From a virus: 64,000 nt of DNA. The notes beneath the pieces were generated by a model. That model searched no databases. It had not been told where the DNA came from and saw only the letters and a program-made list of their open reading frames with translations. How positions within the stretch are numbered: the first letter of the stretch is position 1; every line of letters starts with the position of its first letter. Shown piece by piece: positions 14,938 to 16,451 of this stretch. The stretch lies in IMG/VR virus record IMGVR_UViG_3300037485_002668, positions 1 through 64,000 of that record. The stretch is one strand, 5' to 3'. Position numbers and translations under genes: made by a program.

Positions 14938-15330
14938 ATGAACGCTTTAAAATTCATTCGGGAATCCGGGGCGGTGATAATTGACGGGTACGTTATTCAG
15001 GTCAAAGTAGGGACGGAACTGAACGTGGAATTTGACTTTATGGCGGCCTGGGAAATTATTAAATGTTTACCGAAACAGTTTAGAATGCTGCGATTAATTC
15101 ATGTGCACCCGGATGGTATACAGGAACCCTCCCGTCAGGATTGGCTAGTACTGAAAGCCTGGCAAAGGGCTTTGGGGTCAAAATTTATGGTTACCATGGA
15201 AATCTTGACCGTGGATGGGGTGCGGACGTTTGCACCTGAAGGTAAAGAGGTGAATTCGGCTTTTAGTAATGAAATTTTTGAACTTTTAATTGATTTGAGT
15301 TATTTGCGCAGGGATTGTTATTGGTTATAA
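14938..15330 (+). CDS. JAB/MPN (JAMM) metalloprotease-like protein
   Basis: 130 residues with a complete JAMM zinc motif, HVHPDGIQEPSRQD: His55 and His57, then Ser65 and Asp68 in the exact H-x-H-x7-S-x2-D spacing. Prokaryotic JAB proteins remove ubiquitin-like tags or process their C-termini, usually beside E1-like ThiF genes, as here. A likely active-site Glu is in the preceding strands (VEFDF). ATG directly follows GGAGGTAA. The substrate is unknown, since no clear ubiquitin-like protein is encoded nearby. Confidence 0.82.
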   Translation: MNALKFIRESGAVIIDGYVIQVKVGTELNVEFDFMAAWEIIKCLPKQFRMLRLIHVHPDGIQEPSRQDWLVLKAWQRALGSKFMVTMEILTVDGVRTFAPEGKEVNSAFSNEIFELLIDLSYLRRDCYWL

Positions 15331-15339
15331 GGAGAAGAC

Positions 15340-15885
15340 ATGTCAGTAAGCAGGAAAACATTTTACGCAAATCGGGCGAACAACAAACTGGTCTATTTAG
15401 ATCAATTTGGGGTATCGCGGGTTATTTCGGGAATGATTGTAAGTTCGCACAGTGACGAATTATTGATTTATTTGCCAAACGAGGAGCCAGTCGGGGAACG
15501 AATAATTTTAACCCCTTCCAGGGAAGATTGGGAATCGCTTTTGAAAACATTGGATAATCCAAGCTATTTTGAAATGGACACAGACGGGAAAACGGTAAAA
15601 GCGATTCATCGGAAGTGCCAGCGGAAAGTCGGCGGCGATTTGCAATGGAAAATTTGGCGGCGGGATGGCTTTAAGTGTGTTTATTGCGGCGCTCAGGGGG
15701 GCATTAATAACATCACTTTGAGCATAGACCATTTTATTCCAGTCGAACGCGGGGGAACCGATACTGAAAACAATTTAATTTCGGCCTGTCGGAAATGTAA
15801 TCGCAAAAAGGCGGATTTAATGCCGCAACAATTTTTGACGCTAGGCGAATTCGAACGGATTGAAAAATTATTGGGGCGGTCATGA
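15340..15885 (+). CDS. HNH endonuclease
   Basis: 181 residues. A C-terminal HNH domain has zinc pairs CVYC (113, 116) and CRKC (150, 153), the catalytic IDHFIP with His131, and ENNLISA with Asn145. The N-terminal ~100 residues are a separate beta-rich region of unknown role. It lies between the JAMM and ThiF genes and overlaps the latter by 4 nt, so it is part of the operon rather than a free homing endonuclease. ATG after AAGGAG. Confidence 0.88.
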   Translation: MSVSRKTFYANRANNKLVYLDQFGVSRVISGMIVSSHSDELLIYLPNEEPVGERIILTPSREDWESLLKTLDNPSYFEMDTDGKTVKAIHRKCQRKVGGDLQWKIWRRDGFKCVYCGAQGGINNITLSIDHFIPVERGGTDTENNLISACRKCNRKKADLMPQQFLTLGEFERIEKLLGRS

Positions 15886-16451
15886 AAAGAATGGTTATTT
15901 TCGGGGTGGGGACGCTGGGCAGTCATTTTGCGCTGCTGGCGGCGGATACGTTCCGAAATGAATGTGAATATAAAATTATCGATTTTGACAAGGTCGAAAA
16001 GCGAAATTTCAGAACGCAGGCATACTGGCCGATTTACGAAAATAAGTTCAAAGTAGAGGCGCTGCAAAGTCTGATTTGGGGTAAGACGGGCGTTCTGGTT
16101 GATCCGTGGAAAACGTGCGTTAAGTCCAGGGAACATTTTACAGGTTATGATTTGGTCGTGGAGGTGGTCGATAATCCGGAATCGATAGCCCTGACCAAGG
16201 GGTTGAATTGTCCGGTATTGCATTTGAAATTTATCATTCAGGATGGAAAGCCGGTCGGGTCGATTTTGTGGGATGAAAAGTACAATTTTGGCGGCGCGGC
16301 AAAAAATGGTGTCGACCCGTGTGATGTGGAAGGGATGCTGGCTTTTGCGTGGGTGATGGCCGGGCATGCGGTTTGGGTCGTAAACCGATTTTTGACGCAG
16401 GGGGTAAAAGAAAATCGGGTAATTACTTTGAATAACGTGCAAATTTTTTAA
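15882..16451 (+). CDS. ThiF/E1-like adenylation-fold protein
   Basis: 189 residues with a Rossmann start GVGTLGSHFA (Gly8, Gly10, Gly13). Then IIDFDKVEKRNFRTQAY, the D-x-D-x-V-x3-N-x2-R pattern with which ThiF/E1 proteins bind ATP and adenylate a partner's C-terminus. VVEVVDNPES matches the usual D-N turn. A Cys in VDPCDVEG might serve as acceptor. At 189 residues it is shorter than typical ThiF (~240) and may lack the zinc-binding part. It ends the operon, 60 bp before the tRNA-like RNAs. Confidence 0.85.
   Translation: MKRMVIFGVGTLGSHFALLAADTFRNECEYKIIDFDKVEKRNFRTQAYWPIYENKFKVEALQSLIWGKTGVLVDPWKTCVKSREHFTGYDLVVEVVDNPESIALTKGLNCPVLHLKFIIQDGKPVGSILWDEKYNFGGAAKNGVDPCDVEGMLAFAWVMAGHAVWVVNRFLTQGVKENRVITLNNVQIF

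Follow-up and report, generated by a model that had tools for sequence, protein, structure and literature searches.

Genes at the locus

The DNA considered here is a 64,000-nucleotide viral stretch (positions 1 to 64,000 of IMG/VR record IMGVR_UViG_3300037485_002668; hereafter the window), and in particular a run of genes at 12143-16451, all in the same direction, that encodes a Ro60/TROVE-like protein, a probable E2-like protein, a JAMM metalloprotease, an HNH endonuclease and an E1/ThiF-like adenylating enzyme. The parent IMG/VR record, of 99,244 bases, includes genes for phage replication and for a head protein, and the phage setting is therefore sound. An earlier note on this DNA had pointed to a JAMM motif and a ThiF nucleotide site in one operon with a 275-residue protein and an HNH nuclease, and the open reading frames and motifs are present as it described. 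The window probably carries a diverged and possibly incomplete version of a cassette for ubiquitin-like conjugation that phages encode and that is tied to a Ro60-like protein.

The JAMM (Prok-JAB-like) protease has 130 residues (14938-15330, + strand, as are all features of this region). Its motif, E9, H55, H57, S65 and D68 (E ... HxH(x7)S(xx)D), is invariant in a 22-sequence alignment of the family (A15), which fixes the catalytic glutamate as E9, within a conserved N-terminal "ExG". Against the Pfam model PF14464 (Prok-JAB) the window protein scores 13.1 bits, under the 25-bit cut-off; the divergent homologue of phage LR756511 passes (32.6 vs 25 bits), and at E values up to 1 the model matches all 22 members. 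The E1/ThiF-like enzyme (189 residues; 15882-16451) has a nucleotide site, G8-x-G10-x-x-G13, D34 and D36, that together with K57 and D97 is invariant in its family alignment (A9). It matches ThiF in NCBIfam (E 2.5e-10) and scores 23.8 bits against Pfam ThiF (PF00899), just under the cut-off of 28.1, which its homologue in Virus Rctr197k passes; the family profile matches Uba4, MoeB, UBA2 and Cap2 structures in the PDB (E 1e-14 to 1e-6). Cys147 (codon 16320-16322) is also invariant in A9, and its position makes it a candidate thioester cysteine. Because the site residues of both enzymes are invariant, neither is a chance motif. The E1-E2 models of PADLOC match only the E1. The earlier note had named a clear assignment to pathways such as cofactor synthesis as what would refute its reading. 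Such an assignment did not result: the E1 scores far under the ThiF/MoeB equivalog cut-offs, and the operon proteins scanned included none for cofactor synthesis.

The 275-residue protein begins with a TTG codon (14110-14937), and its C-terminal domain (residues ~190-268) holds a cysteine, Cys244 (codon 14839-14841), that is discussed below. Its stop codon is followed by the JAMM start with 0 nucleotides between them, 9 nucleotides separate the JAMM and HNH genes, and the stop codon of the HNH gene and the E1 start overlap; Shine-Dalgarno-like sequences are well placed before the JAMM and HNH genes. The HNH endonuclease (181 residues; 15340-15885) matches the Pfam HNH family at E 3e-13.

The fifth protein of the run, of 503 residues, is encoded at 12143-13654, outside the segment to which the earlier note was confined, and was missed there. 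It has a C-terminal vWA domain with the MIDAS motif D314-x-S316-G-S318-M. When only the three members of its family that differ most are used, the profile matches the TROVE protein 9l5y at E 1.3e-4 over profile positions 228-472, which take in both the helical region and the vWA domain; it also matches the RO60 structure (E 1.9e-4) over the vWA part. A 23-member profile matches vWA proteins only, and the TROVE model PF05731 gave no match to these proteins at E values up to 10 in 13 records, with a Deinobacterium control positive; "Ro60-like" is therefore the right strength for the name.

The gene run apparently begins further upstream, at 10866, behind a promoter-like site (TTGACT-17-TATATT, 10808-10836) that lies 30 nucleotides upstream of the operon's first gene and is a consensus match only. 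It includes a gene for an 89-residue protein (11165-11434) and, between the TROVE-like and E2-like genes, genes for a 75-residue protein that no family matched (13656-13883) and a 73-residue hydrophobic, probable membrane protein (13888-14109), the latter judged by reading of the sequence. None of the 275-, 89- and 503-residue proteins obtains a name from Pfam, PHROG, NCBIfam or PADLOC alone. Directly after the E1 gene there is a short RNA unit (16460-16931), made up of a second promoter-like site (TTGACA-17-TATATT, 16460-16488; 11 of 12 positions, again a consensus match only), a pair of tRNA-like RNAs that carry inserts, and, closing the unit, a terminator-like hairpin with a T run (16900-16931). 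The first RNA (16511-16663) has an acceptor stem, a T arm, an anticodon-like arm and an inserted long hairpin; the second (16673-16806) has a large insert and scores 41 bits against the Rfam tRNA model (cut-off 29). ARAGORN sees the two only when introns are allowed.

A five-gene cassette in related loci

As single queries against viral contigs the E1, the JAMM protease and the 275-residue protein of the window gave no matches, nor did a scan of viral contigs with an alignment of the 275-residue family. For the window E1 there was a single matching phage record, Virus Rctr197k (28% identity, E 1e-13); the 503-residue protein matched it too (E 5e-11), about 7 kb from that record's E1 gene. A match to the 275-residue protein came from the 595-kb phage LR756511 (E 2e-5), and the same gene set surrounds the matches in both phages. 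Three-member alignments were then run against viral contigs. The sole scan that opened the family was that with the E1 alignment of the three relatives, which led to five loci. In these a small conserved gene became apparent between JAMM and E1. A scan with it returned 24 viral loci, part of which had been found before, together with three loci in metagenome-assembled bacterial genomes. Duplicate loci (L007, L012, L019, L021, L025, L027 and L034) were taken out by hand.

Twenty-two loci have all five genes, and family profiles place them in the order Ro60/TROVE-like vWA, E2-like, JAMM, ubiquitin-like and E1 in 21 of the 22; the exception is L037, where the ubiquitin-like gene is ahead of JAMM. 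The 22 loci are viral or viral-looking, most of them on contigs of 28-452 kb, and belong mostly to very large phages. The intergenic gaps range from an overlap to 5.5 kb of other genes, and that the order is kept despite them speaks for genes that function as a unit and not for ones that are neighbours by chance. Median pairwise identity among the loci is 46-57%, so they are not copies of one phage. Between the five families, pairwise distances are correlated (r 0.37-0.70, a value reached by at most 1 of 2000 permutations), in loci that are themselves related and hence not independent. RtcB is not a regular companion, being found in 3 of 13 records.

The candidate modifier and conjugating enzyme

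The small gene between JAMM and E1 in the relatives encodes a protein of about 86 residues. Its predicted structure (mean predicted local distance difference test, pLDDT, 90.5) has the arrangement strand-strand-helix-strand-strand, and comparison with folds in the PDB returned mostly ubiquitin-like, SUMO, RBD, PB1 and other beta-grasp domains; the protein is thus modelled as a beta-grasp fold. In the alignment the core ends in RPKTPFG or a near equivalent, the terminal glycine is nearly invariant, and tails of variable length, from 0 to about 60 residues, follow it. These tails could fit trimming of a precursor by the adjoining JAMM protease. The earlier note had proposed looking in relatives for a partner that ends in glycine, and this protein is such a partner. 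In phage LR756511 the ubiquitin-like protein has 78 residues, ends in RPDAIFG and is encoded at 7326-7562, upstream of the TROVE-like gene; another frame of that locus, at 10730-11029, had been considered for the same role and was dropped in favour of it.

The second component that comparison brings out is the 275-residue family. The cysteine of its G-I/V/F-C-L motif (Cys244 in the window) is kept in 24 of 24 members of alignment A12. An AlphaFold model of the window protein predicts a helix at 160-202, strands at 206-213, 216-223, 226-233 and 237-241, Cys244, and a helix at 257-267; in the C-terminal domain pLDDT is about 85-95 to residue 240 and falls at the cysteine loop. A helix, four strands, the active-site cysteine and a helix is also the order of the UBC core. 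VIA-align places the model beside the RWD domains of Ctf19-Mcm21, CENP and Knl1 proteins (Z 3.4-4.4), with unrelated folds scoring equally; RWD domains are inactive relatives of UBC. From this predicted topology, the invariant cysteine and the company of its gene, we think it probable that the 275-residue protein is an E2. The earlier note had seen neither an E2 nor a ubiquitin-like gene. Its statement holds for the ubiquitin-like gene, of which none was recognised in the 99-kb record at the sensitivity of these searches, and no longer for the E2, a probable one having come to light through comparison with relatives. A search of a viral structure library with the 275-residue model gave nothing useful. 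As a separate observation, the E2-like gene of Virus Rctr197k (5074-6096 of that locus) was missed in GenBank, where a reverse-strand coding sequence is annotated over it.

Several results weigh against a conjugation cassette and are best taken together. The E2-like family has no sequence match to any E2 in Pfam or the PDB, a comparison of the kind that the earlier note had suggested, and a link of its domain by hidden Markov model to two human E2 sequences, UBE2D2 and UBC9, was no better than with shuffled sequences. The fold matches of the 275-residue protein are weak, the best Foldseek E value being 0.13, with none significant, and all Z values below 6; those of the ubiquitin-like model to PDB structures are all below Z 5. 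In the E1 members aligned, the arginine of the NxNRQ motif is absent, and Thr, Ser or Ala stands in its place; other features of the superfamily are found, and the claim is accordingly kept at "E1/ThiF-like". Finally, profile and profile-profile searches of all open reading frames in the 99-kb record, which may be incomplete, recognised no ubiquitin-like gene.

The slot of the ubiquitin-like gene is occupied in the window by the HNH gene. Members of the HNH family, N-terminus included, occur in other loci in the gap between E2 and JAMM (L014, L017 and L020) or in that between TROVE and E2 (L023); in L030 one follows the ubiquitin-like gene, and in L009 one lies outside the cassette. A gene found at so many positions is most readily seen as a mobile HNH gene and not as part of the machine, and the window copy is probably a mobile insertion. 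The idea that the HNH N-terminus is a hidden ubiquitin was rejected, this N-terminus being common to HNH relatives elsewhere. A look for small open reading frames ending in glycine in the 99-kb record likewise found no ubiquitin-like gene, though a diverged one could escape such a search. The 89-residue protein at 11165-11434 is kept only as a weak candidate: a beta-beta-alpha-beta-beta pattern is possible by eye and its C-terminus is not glycine, and as a ubiquitin-like protein it had an hhalign probability of 0.3% and, in a ranking of 627 open reading frames, stood at about rank 80.

With the HNH gene in the slot and no ubiquitin-like gene recognised, the window copy may use a diverged or unlinked modifier (perhaps the 89-residue protein), may use a modifier of the host, or may have none and be incomplete. 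A stronger form of the last alternative, which concerns the window only and is compatible with a conjugation cassette in the relatives, is that the copy has decayed: a mobile HNH gene took the place of the ubiquitin-like gene, and the enzymes left behind are relics or act only on a modifier of the host. The exact position of the HNH insertion, the occurrence of its family at other sites in other cassettes and the lack of a recognised modifier gene in the record would all follow from such a replacement. However, every open reading frame of the window is open, the JAMM and E1 residues and the E2 cysteine are kept, and the equally divergent locus of LR756511 has its modifier gene in a new place, upstream of the TROVE gene, so that relocation is possible in a record that may be incomplete. 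Decay is a serious possibility, although less likely than not.

Possible functions and comparison with known systems

If the window and its relatives encode a conjugation cassette, its chemistry, target and role may be pictured as follows. The JAMM protease would trim the variable tail after the ...RPKTPFG end of the relatives' ubiquitin-like protein, and might take the tag off again afterwards. The E1/ThiF protein would adenylate the C-terminal glycine of the modifier and take the modifier onto its conserved cysteine, and the E2-like protein, through Cys244 in the window, would hand it to target proteins. The Ro60/TROVE-like vWA protein could serve as scaffold or target, with tagging on or near RNA complexes, often of phage tRNA.

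Many tRNA genes surround the cassette in several relatives; the tRNAs listed for G003 and G004, on the other hand, lie far from it. The two tRNA-like RNAs of the window (16511-16806) are, as a hypothesis, candidate RNA partners of the Ro60-like protein in a role like that of Y RNA; scans found no match to a classical Y RNA family. A more specific proposal is that the Ro60-like protein, with the help of a tRNA-like (Y-RNA-like) RNA of the phage, brings in RNA complexes that are damaged or foreign. The E1, E2 and JAMM proteins would tag the proteins of these complexes, such as host tRNA nucleases or ribosomal factors, and so protect phage translation. We regard this ribonucleoprotein-directed tagging as speculative and rather unlikely in that particular form. 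As observations in their own right, L026 has tRNA genes with inserts of ~60-73 nucleotides at 363-497 and 2134-2267, both lying upstream of the TROVE-like gene by no more than 3.5 kb; tmRNA genes are found near the cassette in L006, L008 and L009; and L008 has a group I intron at 1270-1510.

The same surroundings bear on a sulfur relay, in which the E1 and a thiocarboxylate of the ubiquitin-like protein would serve tRNA thiolation, as in Urm1-Uba4 and TtuB-TtuC, with JAMM trimming the precursor and the Ro60-like protein holding tRNAs. Most cassettes checked sit within phage tRNA arrays, Uba4 and MoeB are the nearest to the E1 profile, and trimming by JAMM is compatible with this scheme. On the other hand, scans of the cassette proteins brought up no recognisable thiolase or rhodanese, the conserved protein of 275-320 residues with an invariant cysteine is better explained as an E2, and the distance between tRNA arrays and cassette in G003 and G004, two of the contigs viewed, does not suit it. 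A sulfur relay thus appears improbable. The other function proposed in the earlier note was that of an antagonist, in which the enzymes would capture or remove tags made by host systems such as Cap2/Cap3 of CBASS (cyclic-oligonucleotide-based anti-phage signalling system) or Bil. Location in a phage, the presence of an E1 with a deconjugase-like JAMM protease, and a window copy without a modifier of its own all accord with counter-defence, but the relatives' own ubiquitin-like and E2-like genes and a fixed Ro60-like partner would be needless for an antagonist, and the operon proteins scanned included no CD-NTase and nothing Cap-like. We consider counter-defence improbable, and of the earlier proposal it is the conjugation system, now seen as a conserved phage cassette, that has gained ground; nothing found points to an antagonist of CBASS or Bil in particular.

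CBASS, PRTRC and cofactor synthesis also fit worse than a conjugation cassette as frames for the whole gene set. Type II CBASS differs in that no CD-NTase or fused E2-E1 was found among the operon proteins scanned, the E1 here being a separate protein of 189 residues. The PRTRC plasmid system (TIGR03734-03742) has ThiF, JAB, E2-like and ubiquitin-like components. These resemble the parts of the cassette, and there is weak similarity to PRTRC_ThiF (33.8 bits in L009); however, the cassette proteins are far under the NCBIfam cut-offs (144.75 and 101.8 bits), the best score being 45.9 against 144.75. Bil and Cap2/Cap3 are later-described members of a wider set of bacterial ubiquitin-like operons. 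Operons 6a-6e of this set, described by Iyer et al. 2006 (PMC1779556), have E1-like, E2-like, JAB and ubiquitin-like genes, separate or fused, in one operon, and an E2 without the classical histidine is described there too. The cassette differs from them in being phage-borne, in its fixed Ro60-like partner, in its separate E1 and E2, and in the lack of a match to existing E2 and ubiquitin-like models; a text search of PMC1779556 found no mention of TROVE or vWA.

ROT/TROVE proteins have been noted in a few jumbo phages (PMC7824862), in a review whose main text lacks the terms E1-like and JAB. The cassette protein shares with Ro60/Rsr TROVE proteins, which act with Y RNA, a helical region followed by a vWA domain, and tRNA-like RNAs lie nearby; it differs in being unmatched by PF05731 and in adjoining E1, E2-like and JAMM genes. 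Lambda-type JAB tail proteins are another phage setting for the JAB domain, and the JAMM protein of L009 matches a tail-protein PHROG (E 4e-6), but the operon context and the E1 and ubiquitin-like partners set the cassette apart. The combination of genes was not found described in the openly searchable literature, which leaves subscription papers and preprints outside, and it may have been described before in a source of that kind or another.

Most of the ubiquitin-like conjugation systems of bacteria that have been studied to date defend the host. An implication of the reading that we favour, if it is true, is that there is a viral counterpart of these defences, one that links protein tagging to RNA surveillance. 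A five-gene set in very large phages, with a Ro60-like protein and often among tRNA genes, would be a little-explored form of viral protein tagging in bacteria, and a set of only five genes is small enough to be testable in a laboratory strain.

Finally, we note other genes of the window, all on the - strand. The gene at 5315-6493 matches PHROG 1211, 2-aminooxy adenylosuccinate synthetase (E 5e-52), and is probably PurZ-like, so that the phage may use diaminopurine (Z) DNA. An integrase at 17467-18381 (PHROG 1, E 1e-20) suggests that the phage may be temperate. The protein encoded at 7438-8400 appears, by reading of the translation, to have a DnaJ-like N-terminus followed by a protein-kinase-like part, and a single open reading frame of 2734 residues extends over 39944-48148. 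An AAA+ protein at 21760-22761, in PHROG 7998 (a family annotated with unknown function), has the ESELFG and GAFTGS motifs as in sigma-54 activators, which is unusual for a phage.
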